A DNA stretch of 64,000 bases from Chlorobiaceae bacterium. GTDB lineage: Bacteria; Bacteroidota; Chlorobiia; Chlorobiales; Chlorobiaceae. The position numbers were made by a program, and so were the translations under genes. The stretch lies in assembly GCA_013334525.1 (NCBI GenBank), contig JAAXXK010000004.1, positions 19,629-83,628 on the forward strand, in the 5' to 3' direction. Below the pieces are notes generated by a model. That model did not search any database, was not told where the DNA came from, and was given only the letters and a program-made list of their open reading frames with translations. Below, piece after piece: positions 49,857 through 58,272 of this stretch. Every line of letters starts with the position of its first letter. Position 1 is the first letter of the stretch.

Positions 49857-51074
49857 ATGCGTATATTAACTTTTACTGGTAAAGGCGGAGTAGGGAAAAC
49901 AAGTGTTTCGGCTGCTACAGCCGTTCGTCTTTCCGAGTTGGGGCATCGCACTTTGGTGCTGTCTACCGATCCTGCCCACAGCCTTTCCGACTCTTTCAAT
50001 CTCCCCCTTGGCGCAGAGCCGACCAAAATCAAGGAGAACCTTCATGCTATCGAGGTGAATCCCTATGTGGACCTCAAGCAGAACTGGCATTCAGTACAGA
50101 AATATTATACCCGTATTTTCATGGCCCAGGGAGTTTCAGGGGTTATGGCCGATGAAATGACGATCCTGCCCGGCATGGAAGAGCTTTTCTCACTGCTTCG
50201 GATCAAACGTTACAAGGCCTCAGGCCTCTACGATACCCTTGTACTCGACACGGCTCCTACCGGAGAGACGCTTCGCCTGCTTTCCCTTCCTGATACCCTT
50301 TCCTGGGGAATGAAAGCCGTCAAGAATGTCAACAAATACATTGTTCGCCCGCTCAGCAAGCCGCTGTCGAAAATGTCCGACAAGATAGCCTATTACATTC
50401 CGCCGGAAGATGCCATCGAATCGGTCGACCAGGTTTTTGACGAGCTTGAGGATATCCGCGAGATCCTGACCGACAACGTCAAGTCTACGGTCAGGCTGGT
50501 CATGAACGCCGAGAAGATGTCGATCAAGGAGACCATGCGCGCCCTTACCTACCTGAACCTTTATGGTTTCAAGGTCGATATGGTGCTTGTCAACAAACTG
50601 CTCGATACACAGGAAAACAGCGGATACCTTGAGAAATGGAAGGGAATCCAGCAGAAATACCTGGGCGAAATCGAAGAGGGATTTGCCCCCCTGCCGGTCA
50701 AGAAGATGAAGATGTACGACCAGGAGATCGTTGGCGTCAAGTCACTCGAGGTTTTTGCACATGACATCTACGGAGATACCGATCCGTCACGACTCATGTA
50801 CGACGAACCGCCGATCAAGTTCATCCGCAACGGCGACGTTTACGAAGTGCAGCTCAAACTCATGTTCGCCAACCCTGTCGATATCGACGTTTGGGTGACC
50901 GGCGACGAACTCTACATCCAGATCGGAAACCAGAGGAAAGTCATAACCCTCCCGATCAGTCTCACCGGACTGGAACCGGGCGAAGCCGTATTCAAGGACA
51001 AGTGGCTCCACATTCCGTTCGATCTTGCCAACCAGGGGCAGCATCATCGTACCAGGGAGCTTCACAAGGCTTGA
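49857..51074 (+). CDS. ArsA/Get3-like P-loop ATPase with C-terminal Hsp20-like domain
   Basis: [47 protein letters not shown]-terminal EVQLKLMFANPVDIDVWVTGDELYIQIGNQRKVITLP; no Cys residues. Confidence 0.9.
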   Translation: MRILTFTGKGGVGKTSVSAATAVRLSELGHRTLVLSTDPAHSLSDSFNLPLGAEPTKIKENLHAIEVNPYVDLKQNWHSVQKYYTRIFMAQGVSGVMADEMTILPGMEELFSLLRIKRYKASGLYDTLVLDTAPTGETLRLLSLPDTLSWGMKAVKNVNKYIVRPLSKPLSKMSDKIAYYIPPEDAIESVDQVFDELEDIREILTDNVKSTVRLVMNAEKMSIKETMRALTYLNLYGFKVDMVLVNKLLDTQENSGYLEKWKGIQQKYLGEIEEGFAPLPVKKMKMYDQEIVGVKSLEVFAHDIYGDTDPSRLMYDEPPIKFIRNGDVYEVQLKLMFANPVDIDVWVTGDELYIQIGNQRKVITLPISLTGLEPGEAVFKDKWLHIPFDLANQGQHHRTRELHKA

Positions 51075-51189
51075 GGCGAAGGTGGTCAAGTTTGATCAGG
51101 GTATATTTTTTTTTACCTTGAACTATGGTAATTTGCACTGTAACAAACTAACGAGGGCTGTTTAAGCAGCCGCAATTAAGGAGGACACA

Positions 51190-51609
51190 ATGTCAGAGTC
51201 GTATCAGAAACTTCGCAAGGACTTTAAGGAACTCGATTTCACCGACAGACTCACCTTTCTTGCCGAAAGCGTGCTTCTGACCGGCCAGAGCGCCATCGTC
51301 GGCGGACTGGAAGTGGCAGGCAGCGTCGTAGAGACCGTCGCCGGTACGGTTGGTTCGCTTGTCGATGCATCGGGTATCGGCAACATCCTGGGTGGCCCCA
51401 GCGGTGTCGTTGGTGAAACCATCGACCGTGTGGCGATCACCGTGAAAGATGTCTCCCGTTCCGCAGGCGAACTTTACAGCGATGCCGTAAAGAACGTTGA
51501 GAACGCTACGGGCAATGCTGCGAAAGCTGTCGGCGATGCCGGTGTATCAGCTTCCGAAGCGGTAAAAAATATTGCCGGTTCGTTCCAGAAAACCACAGGT
51601 AAAGCATGA
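51190..51609 (+). CDS. csmC: Chlorosome envelope protein, CsmC-like
   Basis: Gly/Ala/Val-rich 139-aa protein ([40 protein letters not shown]) directly upstream of csmA. Confidence 0.82.
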
Positions 51610-51771
51610 TGTAGTTGAATATTCCGGTTCGTTTCCGTCTGGAAACACGGCTGGATAGCCATCAGAATCTTTTATTTGTGTTTTTTTGATTATTCGCTTA
51701 TTTTTATCCTAAAGTCGCAATTTTATCGAATGTTGTTTTTTTCTGTCAATTAAATTCCAAAAGGAGGAGTT

Positions 51772-52014
51772 ATGAGTGGAGGAGGAGTATTTACCGATAT
51801 CTTAGCCGCCGCAGGCCGCATTTTCGAAGTTATGGTTGAAGGTCATTGGGAAACCGTCGGCATGCTTTTTGACTCACTGGGCAAAGGCACCATGCGTATC
51901 AATCGCAATGCCTATGGTTCACTGGGTGGCGGTTCCAGCCTTCGTGGTTCTTCACCTGAGGTTTCCGGCTATGCCGTTCCTACCAAGGAAGTTGAATCCA
52001 AGTTTGCCAAATAA
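51772..52014 (+). CDS. csmA: Chlorosome baseplate bacteriochlorophyll a-binding protein (precursor)
   Basis: [54 protein letters not shown]..., immediately recognisable CsmA. Confidence 0.98.
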
Positions 52015-52038
52015 GCAAACTGGTCAGCAGATTACACA

Positions 52039-52075
52039 AGCAGTGACAGGCAAAAACCGTCACTGCTTTTTTTTT
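52039..52075 (+). terminator. Rho-independent terminator of csmC-csmA
   Basis: agcagtgac-aggcaaaaacc-gtcactgct followed by T-run. Confidence 0.85.
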
Positions 52076-52262
52076 GTAGTGAGCACTCATCTGACTTTGC
52101 GCATTTTTCGACATTCGACTCGTCTACCGATCTCTTCCTGCACCTTCCTGCCCTGCTTTCCCCGGTTCTTTGTTACGTAATTTATTTTAGTTTTCATATT
52201 TTAGTAATTCGAGCATTTAATTGACGATCAACGGACTTTACAGGTAACAGACCGAAGCGGTA

Positions 52263-54308
52263 ATGGCTAATTTTTCTCTATATGTCTCAGGGCAGACAGA
52301 ACTGAATGATGTCACTGAGTTTTTCCAGAAACGTCTTCTTGGTGAAGGTGAAAATCCAATTGCGTTTTTTGATGGGGTTTTTTACGAGTCTCACCAGGAG
52401 CGTGTAGGCAACATCGTCTACCAGGACTATCTGATTTATACCGACAAGGCGCTCTACCTTTGGGCAAGGGGCTCTTCGAAGGATTATCTCGATCGTTTCA
52501 ACCTTGGGGCCGTTTCAGTGAACAGCCGCAACAAGGACAGTGCGTTCGCGACGCTTAACCTCAAGATCAGGCGCGAGGCGAAGGAGCCTGTGTACGTGAT
52601 TTTCGACATGGTCGAAATTCGTGAAGCAGAGACTATCGTAAAACTCCATACGGTTGTCGAATCGACCATCGAGGATTATCTCGGCGTCAATTACCGACAG
52701 GAAATTCCTGATGATACTGCCGACAGGATTCTTGAGGCGGCCAGGAAGTTCTGCCCCCCCAAAAACCTCTCCATCCCCCTTGAATCTCCCCAGATTCCGG
52801 TCAGCGATGCGGGTATCGGTTATGGCCAGGATCTTCTCGAGCAGTACAAGGCCTCTATCGGCTACAATCCGAATCAGGATCCCCAGCAGCAGGGAGTGCC
52901 CCCGGGCGCGAGGCAACATGCCGGCATGGGTCCTCAGGATGCCATCAGAGGCGGTATCGAGTCTCTGCTTCCTACCGATCCGGCCTCACTCAAGCGGATT
53001 GCCGATCAGATAAAGAATATGGTGGGCGATGCTCCGTTCAAGCTTCGTGACCAGGTGATGAAAGACCTGCAGCATGTGCCCGGCGATGTCGCCACGGTTC
53101 TGACTGCCCTGAACGAGCTGCTTTCCAATATCGCAGGCAATCCTCTTGCCGAGCGTTTCGTCATGAATGCCATCAAAACCGCAGTCGTCAACGATGGGGT
53201 TCTCGGTTCGCTTACAAAAATCATCAAGCTGACTTCGGGCGGCGGTGGAAAAAAACCGGCCAAGCCGACAGCGCCATCTTCGCAGGACGATCAGCCGTCA
53301 GGAAGGTCAAACAACTCAGGCTTTCACGATGATTCCGATGACGATACGACGATCCGGAGAAAAAAGATCAGCGTCAAGGACGATGACGAGCGTCCGGCAT
53401 ACGATCCTTTTGCGGATAACGACGATCCTATCGTTTCAAGGGAGAACCGCCCGCAACCGTCACGTCCCAAGCCCGCCAGGGATGACGATTTTGATGCCGA
53501 TGCGGCAGCGCCGAGAAAGAAGATCTCCATCAAGATGGACGATGACAGTGGTTCTGGCAGCAATGAGATTGCCCGAAAACTGATGAGTTACGACGAGACT
53601 GAGCGTGATGAGCCTGAACCTTCAACACGGGAAATACCCTCTGTGGAACCGGTTGCAGCTGAACCAGTGATCCGCAAGAAAAAAGTTTCAATAAAAGCCG
53701 AAGCGGGTAGTGGTGCAGAGGCCGATATCGCCCGCAAGTTGATGAGTTACGACGAGGCGGCCAGAGAAGGAAACGATTCCGGCCAATCTGCTCAAGTTTC
53801 TCAGGACCTTTCCGAAGATGATTCATTTTCACCGGTGGTTCCAGAGTCGACCAGGAAAAAAATCAGGATCAAGGCGGAGTCCGGGGCCGAAGAGGCCGGC
53901 GGAGCTGAATCTGGTATCGCCAGCAAGCTGATGAGCTACGACGAAGAGGCTCCTTCGCTTCAGCCAGCCCCGGAATCGCAGCAGAAAAAGATCAGGATCA
54001 AGGCGGAACCGGAACCGGCACCCGAGCCCGAGCCGGAAGAGTTTTATATTCCTGAAGATATCCTCTTCTCCGCCCTGGGTGAAGAGGAACCAGAAGATCG
54101 TTCGAGTAAGTACATGACCATTGTCTCCGAGGATTTGGACTCGGAAGTATCGGTTACGGAAAAAGAGCCTGAACGTATCAAGTTACCATCAGGTAATGCC
54201 GGCAATGGCACGCCTGTCGGCACACTGCCGCGCAAGAACAGCGTAAAGGACATCGGCGATGAGTCAGAGGGAGATAAGCATTTAGTCACAGTCAAGATTA
54301 CACCTTAG
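52263..54308 (+). CDS. Uncharacterised 681-aa protein: globular N-domain, charged/disordered C-terminal repeat tail
   Basis: N-terminal MANFSLYVSGQTELNDVTEFFQKRLLGEGENPIAFFDGVFYESHQERVGNIVYQDYLIYTDKALYLWARG; repeated RKKISIKAE...IARKLMSYDE in the C-terminal third. Confidence 0.85.
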   Translation: MANFSLYVSGQTELNDVTEFFQKRLLGEGENPIAFFDGVFYESHQERVGNIVYQDYLIYTDKALYLWARGSSKDYLDRFNLGAVSVNSRNKDSAFATLNLKIRREAKEPVYVIFDMVEIREAETIVKLHTVVESTIEDYLGVNYRQEIPDDTADRILEAARKFCPPKNLSIPLESPQIPVSDAGIGYGQDLLEQYKASIGYNPNQDPQQQGVPPGARQHAGMGPQDAIRGGIESLLPTDPASLKRIADQIKNMVGDAPFKLRDQVMKDLQHVPGDVATVLTALNELLSNIAGNPLAERFVMNAIKTAVVNDGVLGSLTKIIKLTSGGGGKKPAKPTAPSSQDDQPSGRSNNSGFHDDSDDDTTIRRKKISVKDDDERPAYDPFADNDDPIVSRENRPQPSRPKPARDDDFDADAAAPRKKISIKMDDDSGSGSNEIARKLMSYDETERDEPEPSTREIPSVEPVAAEPVIRKKKVSIKAEAGSGAEADIARKLMSYDEAAREGNDSGQSAQVSQDLSEDDSFSPVVPESTRKKIRIKAESGAEEAGGAESGIASKLMSYDEEAPSLQPAPESQQKKIRIKAEPEPAPEPEPEEFYIPEDILFSALGEEEPEDRSSKYMTIVSEDLDSEVSVTEKEPERIKLPSGNAGNGTPVGTLPRKNSVKDIGDESEGDKHLVTVKITP

Positions 54309-54320
54309 TATTTCAATACC

Positions 54321-55475
54321 ATGAGAATCATTCTTTACCTGGGCAAAGGCGGGGTGGGTAAAACCACTGTATCGGCTTCCACCGCGACTGCGATCGCTCG
54401 CAGCGGAAAACGCGTGTTGATTATGAGCACCGACGTTGCCCACAGTCTTGCCGATGCTCTCGGCGCCGAGTTGAGTTCCACTCCTCTGGAGGTCGAGAAA
54501 AATCTGTTCGCCATGGAGGTGAACGTTCTTGCTGAGATCCGGGAAAACTGGACCGAACTGTACTCCTATTTCTCCTCGATTCTTATGCATGATGGTGCAA
54601 ATGAAATTGTTGCTGAAGAGCTGGCCATTGTGCCCGGTATGGAGGAGATGATCAGTCTTCGCTACATCTGGAAAGCCGCAAAATCTGGTTCTTACGATGC
54701 CGTAGTCGTCGATGCGGCCCCGACCGGCGAAACCATGAGACTGCTCGGTATGCCGGAATCATACGGCTGGTATTCAGAGAAGATCGGTGGATGGCACGCC
54801 AAAGCCATTGGATTTGCTGCACCGCTGCTGAGCAAATTCATGCCCAAAAAGAATATTTTCAAGCTCATGCCGGAGATCAACGAGCACATGAAGGAGCTTC
54901 ATGGCATGTTGCAGGATCAGAGCATTACGACTTTCAGGGTGGTGCTGAATCCCGAAAACATGGTGATCAAGGAGGCTCTTCGCGTCCAGACCTATCTCAA
55001 TCTTTTCGGTTACAAACTCGATGCGGCAGTTGTCAACAAGGTACTCCCTGCCAGCTCAAACGATCAGTATCTGCAGAGCCTGATTGACATGCAGGCCAAA
55101 TATCTTCGTGTTATCGAGAACTGTTTCTATCCTGTGCCGATTTTCAGGGCAAAGCAATCTTCTAAGGAAGTTATTGCGCCAGACAGGTTGTTCGAACTGA
55201 GCCAGGAGATCTTCAACGGAAAGAACCCTATTGATGTGCTCTATTCGAACGCAAAGACCCAGACCCTCGAAAAGATCAACGGCAAGTATGTCCTGAGCCT
55301 CTATCTTCCGAATGTCGAGGTGGAAAAACTTGCGGTCAACATAAAAGGCGACGAGCTTCTGGTCGACATCAACAATTTCCGTAAGAGCATTATCCTTCCT
55401 AATGTGCTGGTAGGTCGCAAGACCGAGGGTGCTGATTTCGAGCAGGGAACCCTGAACATTACGTTCACCAACTGA
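54321..55475 (+). CDS. Second ArsA/Get3-like P-loop ATPase with C-terminal Hsp20-like domain
   Basis: [47 protein letters not shown]-terminal [39 protein letters not shown]. Confidence 0.9.
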
Positions 55476-55501
55476 CTCTTTTCAGAGCGGTAAAATACCT
55501 G

Positions 55502-55532
55502 GCGGACTGTTTTTCAGCAGTCCGCTTTTTTT
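55502..55532 (+). terminator. Terminator of the second ATPase gene, overlapping the 3' end of folK
   Basis: gcggactg-tttttcag-cagtccgc followed by T8. Confidence 0.8.
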
Positions 55533-56038
55533 TTGACCAGGAGTTTCTCCGTAAGCTTAATCGGTACCGAAGGATCGGCGCAGCTTTTCAGAAGGTCGGC
55601 GATGGTGCAATGCATCTCCGGGTGGGCGGGGTTGTCGATGTCGAGCAGGGGTATGATGACGAATTTTCTATGGTGAAGCTCTGCATGGGGAATGGTGAGG
55701 ATCTCGCTTTTCAGGTTCAGTTCTCCATAAAGCAGGATGTCGAGATCGATGGTTCTCGGACTCCATCGGCGGTACTGGTCAGGCCTGCCGAGATCGTGTT
55801 CTACAGCTTTGCACCGGGCACGAAGCGCTTCAGGACTCAATTCCGTGGTGATCGCGATCACGGCGTTGAAAAACCTTTCCTGCCTGATATCTCCGACCGG
55901 CTCGGTCATATAAACACCTGAAAGGGCGGTAACAGCGGTTTGCGGAAACAGGTCGAGCATGTCGACAGCCTTTTGAAGGTGGGCTAAACGGTCGCCGACA
56001 TTTGAGCCGATTCCGATATAGGCGGTAATGGGGGGCAT
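55514..56038 (-). CDS. folK: 2-amino-4-hydroxy-6-hydroxymethyldihydropteridine pyrophosphokinase
   Basis: AYIGIGSNVGDRLAHLQKAVDML, RWSPRTIDLDILLYGE, PHAELHHRKFVIIPLLDI. Confidence 0.94.
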   Translation of the reverse strand: MPPITAYIGIGSNVGDRLAHLQKAVDMLDLFPQTAVTALSGVYMTEPVGDIRQERFFNAVIAITTELSPEALRARCKAVEHDLGRPDQYRRWSPRTIDLDILLYGELNLKSEILTIPHAELHHRKFVIIPLLDIDNPAHPEMHCTIADLLKSCADPSVPIKLTEKLLVKKKADC

Positions 56039-56572: not shown

Positions 56573-57271
56573 CTATCCGGCCGGGCAGCAATCGCTGTCG
56601 ATAAAATGGCTGTAAAATGCCATCAAGCTTCCCTCGGGATGTCTGCTGACGATTTTGTCGTACTCGTTTTTCTGCACTTTGCGTCCGAAAGCAGCTTCAA
56701 TGGTGGGCGTTGTCATTATCCTGAATATCTCATCCATCTTTTCGGCCGGGTAGGGCATGTTGTTGTCAAGCCACCAGGTCAACAGCGACAGCAGCGAACT
56801 GACCAGGCAGTGGGTCGTGATTTCAACGGGTACCGGTGGAGATTTTTTGTTCTTCATGAGCAGGGTATGGGGCTCAATCAGCAGGTTATAGAGATACCGG
56901 TGAAGGTATTTCAGGATCATTTCGCCGCTCTGTTTACCCGCGATGGCCTTGTATAATTTTTGATGCTCACCTGTGTGACGGAAGAGTTCAAGAATGAAAT
57001 TGACTTCAGGCTCCTGCCCGGTACGCATAGAGGCAATGAGCGCTTGCTGCTGCTGTTCGAAGAGGTTTCTCAGATGCTCAAAACTTGACAGGAGCAGCTC
57101 GTCCTTGTCCCGATAGTGAGCGTAGAAGGTCGATCTTCCAATGTCTGCACGATCAAGGATATCCTGTACGGTGACGGCCTCGTAACCTTTTTCCACAATA
57201 AGGGACATGAGGGCTTCGTGCATCAGCCTGCGCGTGCGGCCTATCCTCCTGTCCTCCTTTTTTTCTTTCAT
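56573..57271 (-). CDS. TetR/AcrR family transcriptional regulator
   Basis: TRRLMHEALMSLIVEKGYEAVTVQDILDRADIGRSTFYAHYRDKDELLLSSFEHL; start at MKEKKEDRRIG. Confidence 0.88.
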   Translation of the reverse strand: MKEKKEDRRIGRTRRLMHEALMSLIVEKGYEAVTVQDILDRADIGRSTFYAHYRDKDELLLSSFEHLRNLFEQQQQALIASMRTGQEPEVNFILELFRHTGEHQKLYKAIAGKQSGEMILKYLHRYLYNLLIEPHTLLMKNKKSPPVPVEITTHCLVSSLLSLLTWWLDNNMPYPAEKMDEIFRIMTTPTIEAAFGRKVQKNEYDKIVSRHPEGSLMAFYSHFIDSDCCPAG

Positions 57272-57374
57272 ATATCCTCTTTTTTCGTGACAACTCCGGC
57301 CTTTATGTCCGGTAGTGAACAATTTGCGAAACATTGATTGTTGACAGCGCGATTAAATATATCTATTATTTTAT

Positions 57375-57389
57375 CGAACACCATGTTCG
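57375..57389. promoter_or_regulatory. Candidate TetR-type operator in the tetR-arsM divergent intergenic region
   Basis: cgaaca-cca-tgttcg perfect 6+3+6 palindrome, with partly symmetric AT-rich flanks attttat/ataaaat. Confidence 0.5.
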
Positions 57390-57435
57390 TAATAAAATAA
57401 TGTATTTCTTAATTGCAGGGCTGGAGGAGCTTAAA

Positions 57436-58272
57436 ATGGACGGTAAAAGTATCAGGGATGCGGTAAAGGAGAGGTATGGTTCTACAGTAAAACAAAGCGG
57501 CTCGTGCGGGTGCGCCAAAAAGGCCGACTATCCGGATCCTGACTTTATCCAGTCGGCAGCTACGGTCGCCGGGTATTCGGACCGGGAGTTGAAAAGCATA
57601 CCTGATGGAGCCAATCTTGGCCTGGGGTGCGGAAATCCTGTTGCTCTGGTGGCGATCAGGCCGGGCGATGTGGTTCTGGACCTCGGATCGGGTGCCGGAG
57701 TGGACTGTTTTCTGGCTTCGCGCATCGTTGGCGAAAAGGGTCTTGTCATAGGAGTGGACATGACGCCCGGGATGGTCGATCGGGCAAAGGCAAACGCACA
57801 AAATATCGGTTTCGGAAATGTCGATTTCAGGCTGGGCGAGATCGAAAATCTTCCTGTAGGGAGTTCGACGGTTGATATCGTCATATCAAACTGCGTTATC
57901 AACCTTTCAACCGACAAGCCAAAGGTATTTCGGGAGGCCTGGCGTGTAATGAAGCCCGGCGGGAGGCTTATGGTTTCGGATATGGTCCTGCTTGAAGAGC
58001 TGCCTGATTATCTCAAAGGTTCTGTTGAAGCATACCTCAGGTGCATTGCCGGCGCCAGCCTCAAGGAAGAGTATCTTGAAGCCATAAGGGAGGCTGGATT
58101 TGAGGAGATATCGATTGTCGATGAGAGTCATTTCCCGACGGAGCTGATTGCTGAACAGCCCTTCCTGAAGGAGCTCGCCGGGAAAATGAACATACCTATG
58201 GTCGAACTGCAGCTGATTGGAAGCAAGGTTGTCAGCCTGAAGGTATCAGCGAAAAAGCGGGTACTCCCCTGA
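57436..58272 (+). CDS. arsM: Arsenite (As(III)) S-adenosylmethionine methyltransferase-like protein
   Basis: SCGCAKKADYP, LGCGNPVALVAIRPGDVVLDLGSGAGVDCFLASRIVGEKGLVIGVDMTPGMVDRA, ISNCVINLSTDKPKVFREAWRVMKPGGRLMVSD. Confidence 0.9.
   Translation: MDGKSIRDAVKERYGSTVKQSGSCGCAKKADYPDPDFIQSAATVAGYSDRELKSIPDGANLGLGCGNPVALVAIRPGDVVLDLGSGAGVDCFLASRIVGEKGLVIGVDMTPGMVDRAKANAQNIGFGNVDFRLGEIENLPVGSSTVDIVISNCVINLSTDKPKVFREAWRVMKPGGRLMVSDMVLLEELPDYLKGSVEAYLRCIAGASLKEEYLEAIREAGFEEISIVDESHFPTELIAEQPFLKELAGKMNIPMVELQLIGSKVVSLKVSAKKRVLP

Follow-up and report, generated by a model that had tools for sequence, protein, structure and literature searches.

CsmA is stated to be the sole chlorosome protein recognizably common to phyla (PMC9316378; PMC10972752), and the choice between the 'budding' and 'aggregation' models of chlorosome biogenesis is undecided (PMC9316378). 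In Chlorobium and Chlorobaculum, csmC is followed by csmA, mono- and dicistronic mRNAs are produced, and CsmA is essential and CsmC dispensable (Chung and Bryant, as summarized in PMC12214013). The closest described relatives of the two ATPases that flank these genes in the locus presented here are the Get3d proteins (NosGet3d, All4481; AtGet3d, At1g26090; Barlow et al., 2023, PMC10248533), which have the same ATPase and alpha-crystallin domains, no CxxC motif and an intact P-loop. Get3d showed ATPase activity and bound a transmembrane-domain client in vitro, for which the alpha-crystallin domain was not needed; AtGet3d has a closed hydrophobic chamber and copurified with adducts consistent with phospholipid, which according to the authors were possibly adventitious. 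The alpha-crystallin domain was described as being without oligomerization features, Get3d had no known partners, and green sulfur and green non-sulfur proteins were already assigned to Get3d with chlorosomes unmentioned (PMC10248533). In the classification of ArsA homologues by Castillo and Saier (2010; PMC2963123), cluster 11 held only proteins from Chloroherpeton, C. tepidum, Chloroflexus aurantiacus and Chloracidobacterium, and cluster 8 had Chlorobi and Chloroflexus members; links to ars, cst and gas-vesicle genes were reported and the word chlorosome is absent. We found no open-access paper that treats the chlorosome together with Get3 or an anion-transporting ATPase, although the neighborhood may be noted in closed literature or book chapters.

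The locus occupies positions 49857-55475 of the window (the whole 64,000-nucleotide stretch of Chlorobiaceae DNA that was analyzed) and consists of five co-directional + strand ORFs. The order ATPase-1, csmC, csmA, 681-aa protein and ATPase-2, which a first-pass annotation had given, was confirmed by ORF and Pfam calls. The gene for ATPase-1 (ATP1; 49857..51074, +; 405 aa; ORF and Pfam/NCBIfam calls) is followed by csmC for chlorosome envelope protein C (51190..51609, +; 139 aa; PF11098, 5.8e-70), csmA for the 80-aa precursor of the BChl a-binding baseplate protein (51772..52014, +; PF02043, 8.3e-35), the ORF of the 681-aa protein (52263..54308, +) and that of ATPase-2 (ATP2; 54321..55475, +; 384 aa). 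The intergenic gaps measured 115, 162, 248 and 12 bp in gene order, which makes the 681-aa gene and ATP2 the tightly coupled pair. A hairpin with a T-run 3' of csmA (52038..52075, +; -17.2 kcal/mol, z -4.4) is a probable intrinsic terminator or attenuator, so that transcription of csmCA can be separate from that of the 681-aa gene and ATP2 and the five genes need not form one transcript. A strong intrinsic terminator 3' of ATP2 (55501..55534, +; -17.6 kcal/mol, z -5.4) closes the module. The csmC-csmA order is the same as in Chlorobium and Chlorobaculum, and the mRNAs reported there are consistent with the hairpin found here; the open papers on csmCA that we found describe neither the ATPases at its sides nor the 681-aa protein.

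Both ATPases matched PF02374 ArsA_ATPase (7.9e-118 for ATP1 and 6.2e-81 for ATP2) and lay above the 135-bit cut-off of TIGR00345 (284 and 229 bits). The KGGVGKT deviant Walker A and APTGET motifs that the first-pass annotation had read in both were present, and its Cys counts, 0 in ATP1 and 1 in ATP2, were correct as well; orthologues have 0-2, so that the lack of Cys is not a family trait. A CxxC zinc motif was found in neither protein. The C-terminal alpha-crystallin domains of both ATPases had been overlooked in that annotation. This HSP20-like domain (PF17886; 5.9e-20 and 2.4e-19), a hallmark of Get3d, covers residues 327-388 of ATP1, behind an ArsA/Get3 ATPase domain at residues 1-305, and residues 320-382 of ATP2. 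In the AlphaFold2 model of ATP1 (mean pLDDT 80.7) the strands at 320-389 match an alpha-crystallin domain, and the best structural match was NosGet3d (8egk) over the whole chain including this domain (E 1.7e-23), followed by archaeal TRC40/Get3. The NCBIfam NosAFP cut-off of 325 bits, which delimits the cyanobacterial equivalog and not the Get3d architecture as a whole, was not reached (145.9 and 143.8 bits). ATP1 and ATP2 are Get3d-type proteins, composed of a Get3/ArsA ATPase and an alpha-crystallin domain; in contrast to the Get3d proteins of PMC10248533, they have intact catalytic motifs and are encoded beside csmA and a PH-like protein. Up to five paralogues were present per genome.

The Pfam name 'anion-transporting ATPase' and a homologue of the arsenite methyltransferase gene arsM, located 1.9 kb past the module (57334-58272, +; NF008823, 310 bits, cut-off 263), could point to ATPases that energize arsenite efflux. 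This reading is already contradicted and its probability is close to nil. The module proteins share the P-loop fold superfamily with the arsenite pump ArsA, but they are single-domain and Cys-poor, carry the alpha-crystallin domain and scored only 116.6 and 85.7 bits on the ArsA equivalog model (TIGR04291), far below its cut-off of 650, whereas the genome's true ArsA reached 876 bits and lies on another contig (C61) in an arsR-arsC-arsD-arsA-acr3 operon. The arsM gene had no orthologue at other csmA loci, and its proximity is therefore considered incidental; a TetR-type regulator (56573-57334, -) is divergent from it. The earlier statement that the ATPases are not arsenite-pump subunits was thus borne out, and its remark that no arsB is nearby was correct as far as examined, with the arsM homologue to be added.

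The module ATPases also gave weak MinD/ParA profile matches and belong to the same SIMIBI P-loop class, which could suggest that they space or partition chlorosomes along the membrane in the manner of ParA, MinD or McdA, with the 681-aa protein linking the ATPase to its cargo; systems of this sort typically employ an adaptor that is repetitive and multivalent. The full Get3/ArsA domain with its switch motifs, the alpha-crystallin domain and a structure nearest to Get3d and TRC40 argue against organelle positioning, up to five paralogues in one genome would be odd for it, and we regard it as decidedly unlikely.

The 681-aa protein had no match in Pfam or NCBIfam. It is divided into a PH-like N-terminal domain (approximately residues 1-165), a helical middle (approximately 240-325) and a low-complexity tail. 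In the predicted structure, residues 1-165 appeared as a seven-strand barrel with a C-terminal capping helix, with a pLDDT of about 90 or higher for most of the domain, and the top Foldseek matches were PH or PH-like domains (E 3e-4, probability 1.00; the query-normalized TM was low because the model includes disordered parts). The N-terminus is thus predicted to have a PH-domain-like fold, and PH-like domains often bind lipid headgroups. The tail contains five K-[I/V]-x-[I/V]-K motifs, at residues 368, 420, 474, 533 and 576. In the tails of 94 family proteins 105 K/R-[I/V]-x-[I/V/L]-K/R/N motifs were observed as compared to 11.8 in shuffled tails, and the stricter form K/R-[I/V]-x-[I/V]-K/R occurred 2.16 times per 1000 aa versus 0.033 in 1246 neighboring ORFs, a 65-fold difference. 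The motif is present as a single copy at the extreme C-terminus in deep Chlorobiales (RKKIKIK-like), is repeated in Chlorobiaceae and has an RRIxVR version in Chloroflexales. The I-x-I/V motif of small heat-shock proteins docks in the beta4/beta8 groove of the alpha-crystallin domain, and because the module ATPases carry such a domain, the likeness of the tail motif to this ligand is suggestive at the sequence level. KK[IV]x[IV]K was rejected as a genome-wide signature, since a reversed-pattern control gave equally many matches in AT-richer genomes; it was useful in the GC-richer G000 and in G019, where 5/10 and 4/4 of the matches, respectively, fell inside the 681-aa gene.

CsmA was found in 96 of the 98 Chlorobiales genomes. 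The order ATP1-csmC-csmA-681-ATP2 was seen in neighborhoods of all four Chlorobiales families, in one of which (f3) the contig ends before ATP2. By tblastn, with some genomes counted twice, all five genes were in order at 60/64 loci; the other four were cut by contig ends, which leaves 60/60 uncut loci. The outer flanks mostly differ outside Chlorobiaceae. The 681-aa family, which is at least as conserved as the ATPases, was present in 89/98 Chlorobiales and 0/296 other Bacteroidota genomes, and its orthologue is just 388-474 aa long in the deeper families. Among the nine Chlorobiales without a match, which include G038, two (G016 and G049) carry several of the ATPases on separate contigs, consistent with assembly gaps. 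The placement of csmC within the cluster was restricted to Chlorobiales. A short CsmC-like gene was often observed between csmC and csmA in deep Chlorobiales (L062 9499-9711, L063 9345-9584, L068 9140-9481 and L069 8649-8990). Some of these short proteins end in IPIK-type motifs (AIPIK or TIPIR) that resemble the tail motifs of the 681-aa family.

Outside Chlorobiales, a CsmA alignment search retrieved 28 Chloroflexales csmA loci; the first row of the query alignment, a Chloroflexus CsmA, was confirmed by 96-99% identity to the Chloroflexus matches. The order ATPase-csmA-681like-681like-ATPase was found in 26/26 loci that were not cut before the second ATPase, and in 24 of these 26 a third ATPase came next, which is degenerate and lacks both the P-loop and the switch motifs. 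This protein (L071 14132-15247, +, and its Chloroflexales equivalents) has kept ArsA and alpha-crystallin similarity; going by its sequence it is probably a pseudo-ATPase, which may serve in regulation or as one half of a heterodimer. Castillo and Saier tabulated two Chloroflexus ATPases with GI 163845724 and 163845728 (PMC2963123), a spacing that fits the cluster order seen here. The order was ATPase-csmA-681like-681like in both of two more Chloroflexia genomes (G183 and G184; 2/2), which are probably 'Ca. Chlorohelix' and whose csmA is distant. A third, unlinked 681-family gene was present in one of them (G183:C2:1569718-1570272). A single contig scan for csmA-bearing groups yielded only Chloroflexales and Chlorobi, plus one Latescibacterota bin that is probably contaminated.

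Co-occurrence was counted in 158 genomes of the class Chloroflexia, 35 of which had csmA; related genomes in these counts are not independent trials, and the pattern recurs in separate lineages. The ATP1 clade (>=667 bits) was present in 36/158, namely all 35 csmA genomes and G119, whose ATP1-type gene ends at a contig edge, and all other genomes scored <=454 bits. The 681-aa family also occurred in 36/158 (all 35 csmA genomes and G124), as did the second ATPase clade (34/35 csmA genomes, with G130 missing, and G119 and G124). In the three discordant genomes, G119, G124 and G130, the locus lies at contig ends. Eight csmA-negative genomes had a Get3d-type ATPase, exactly one each at the cut-off used and none of the ATP1 type. 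We looked in the two phyla for the ATP1 clade or the 681-aa family in many chlorosome-free genomes and did not find this; in the groups searched, the 681-aa family was found solely with the csmA cluster. Conservation of the neighborhood across Chlorobiales and its absence from non-chlorosome relatives, both put forward in the first-pass annotation, therefore held, the contig-edge case of G119 being the one exception for the ATP1 type among csmA-negative Chloroflexia.

An ATPase tree of 77 rows was built without ArsA outgroups, which had caused long-branch problems. One clade (support 100/100) joined a Chlorobi paralogue (C42-type) with a protein from a Chlorohelix-like genome and with the ATPase that stands second in the csmA cluster of Chloroflexales. 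It contained only chlorosome bearers, and its proteins are similar to those of cluster 11 of Castillo and Saier, where Chloracidobacterium is listed too (PMC2963123). A second clade (96/93) comprised ATP2 of Chlorobi, proteins from Chlorohelix-like genomes and the one Get3d that Chloroflexia without chlorosomes possess. The third (86/74, moderate) united ATP1, the csmA neighbors of Chloroflexales and Chlorohelix-like genomes and further Chlorobi paralogues, again only from chlorosome bearers. Clusters 8 and 11 of Castillo and Saier match ATPase clades found here (PMC2963123). According to these clades, csmA is constantly partnered by an ATPase of the ATP1 type, and the second ATPase differs between the phyla. 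The ATPases had been proposed to work as a pair, possibly as a heterodimer, and both do flank csmC-csmA-681 in Chlorobiales; a strict pair was rejected, since the second ATPase of the csmA cluster is of the ATP2 type in Chlorobiales and of the cluster-11 type in Chloroflexales, so that the two phyla do not share one orthologous pair.

The grouping of ATP2 with the one Get3d that non-chlorosome Chloroflexia retain would be expected if a housekeeping Get3d for membrane-protein quality control were merely parked beside csmA. We consider this very improbable, because in Chloroflexia ATP1 and the second ATPase clade occur only with csmA, the order is kept across families and phyla despite changing flanks, and the 681-aa partner was specific to chlorosome bearers within the groups searched. 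Hitch-hiking within the lineage of this genome alone was ruled out by the same cross-family and cross-phylum order.

The ATP1 clade, CsmA and the 681-aa family are thus firmly established as members of a conserved gene block, which accompanies chlorosomes in both phyla and is joined by additional Get3d-type ATPases. The dedicated chlorosome-making role proposed from the single locus is the best reading of this linkage and co-occurrence, and the link is wider than had been claimed in that it spans Chlorobiota and Chloroflexota. We give about even odds (a probability of roughly 0.5) to the locus being a chlorosome-dedicated assembly module, in which a Get3d-type chaperone would handle CsmA or other amphipathic cargo and would be scaffolded by the 681-aa protein. 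In such a module, ATPase dimers would be chaperones gated by ATP. They would shield the CsmA precursor, which is amphipathic, prone to aggregation and, with 80 aa, presumably too short for co-translational targeting, and would release the cargo at the growing baseplate. CsmC-type proteins, or their lipid or BChl a ligands, may be further cargo. The 681-aa protein would be the organizer, with its PH-like domain toward the membrane or envelope surface and its K/R-[I/V]-x-[I/V]-K/R tail motifs recruiting the ATPases, possibly by docking into the alpha-crystallin domain like the I-x-I motif of small heat-shock proteins.

Comparative genomics is the basis of this claim. The maintenance of the order while the flanks change between Chlorobiales families was counted in favor of a dedicated module, and the closeness of the ATP1 model to NosGet3d, combined with the client binding and lipid copurification of Get3d, in favor of a chaperone. 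The proteins of the module are not among the listed chlorosome Csm proteins (PMC9316378), which fits a transient assembly factor. Counted against the model were the lack of tail anchors or strong transmembrane domains in CsmA and CsmC, the hairpin 3' of csmA, the moderate support (86/74) of the cross-phylum ATP1 clade and, for motif docking, the Get3d alpha-crystallin domain, which lacks oligomerization features and may have no I-x-I groove. Clusters may also be inherited or transferred as a unit, and conserved order alone is therefore no proof of physical interaction.

The first-pass annotation had pointed to the insertion of tail-anchored membrane proteins by Get3/TRC40 ATPases when it suggested the delivery of envelope proteins to nascent chlorosomes. 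Tail-anchored insertion of CsmA and CsmC did not survive hydropathy analysis, as neither has a C-terminal transmembrane segment; their best 19-residue windows are N-terminal or central (Kyte-Doolittle approximately 1.3; 0.18 for Chloroflexus CsmA). Poor transmembrane-domain clients would suit ATPases that carry pigment or lipid instead, with galactolipid, quinone or BChl a carried in the Get3d chamber and passed on to CsmA or the envelope, and with the PH-like scaffold marking the delivery site. The BChl a binding of CsmA, the lipid-headgroup binding common among PH-like domains, and the closed hydrophobic chamber and phospholipid-like adducts of AtGet3d would agree with this, but the lipid may be adventitious according to its authors (PMC10248533) and the constant neighbor is a protein gene, csmA, and no pigment or lipid enzyme; we regard such a carrier as rather unlikely. 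A bolder version of the assembly module, in which a single machine of ancient origin, shared horizontally, builds every chlorosome and its Get3d ATPases are recruited via repeated I-x-I-like motifs to a PH-like membrane scaffold and load CsmA and pigment into the baseplate, is put forward tentatively, as something that could well be wrong. If true, a Get3-family system would here assemble an organelle without handling tail-anchored clients, and Get3d would have its first partner known from genetic linkage.

The 681-aa family and two Get3d ATPase clades are now added as companions of csmA in Chlorobiota and Chloroflexota. The module provides concrete candidate genes for chlorosome biogenesis, gives Get3d a genetically linked partner and a candidate client, and bears on how chlorosomes moved between phyla.

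Further Get3d-type genes were observed away from the module. A csmE-like gene, the second one of the CsmA type, lies approximately 3.7 kb from another Get3d paralogue in two genomes of this genus (L050 7857-9065, +, and 12723-12980, -; L199 1460-1708, +, and 5352-6536, -); no Get3d paralogue was seen beside the equivalent csmE-like gene in G024 (L061). In Chlorobiales, a conserved block in the region of the C42-type ATPase (L052, L180, L186 and L190) includes a FabI-like reductase as well as a large protein of 741-762 aa that is isocitrate-dehydrogenase-like by eye. In a Chlorobiales genome of family f4 (G090; L183 5725-7880), a 4Fe-4S membrane protein (Fer4_5) is encoded after the ATPase of the second chlorosome-only type. 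Its N-terminus contains RTKIPIR; here, too, a Get3d ATPase has an I-x-I-like motif next to it.
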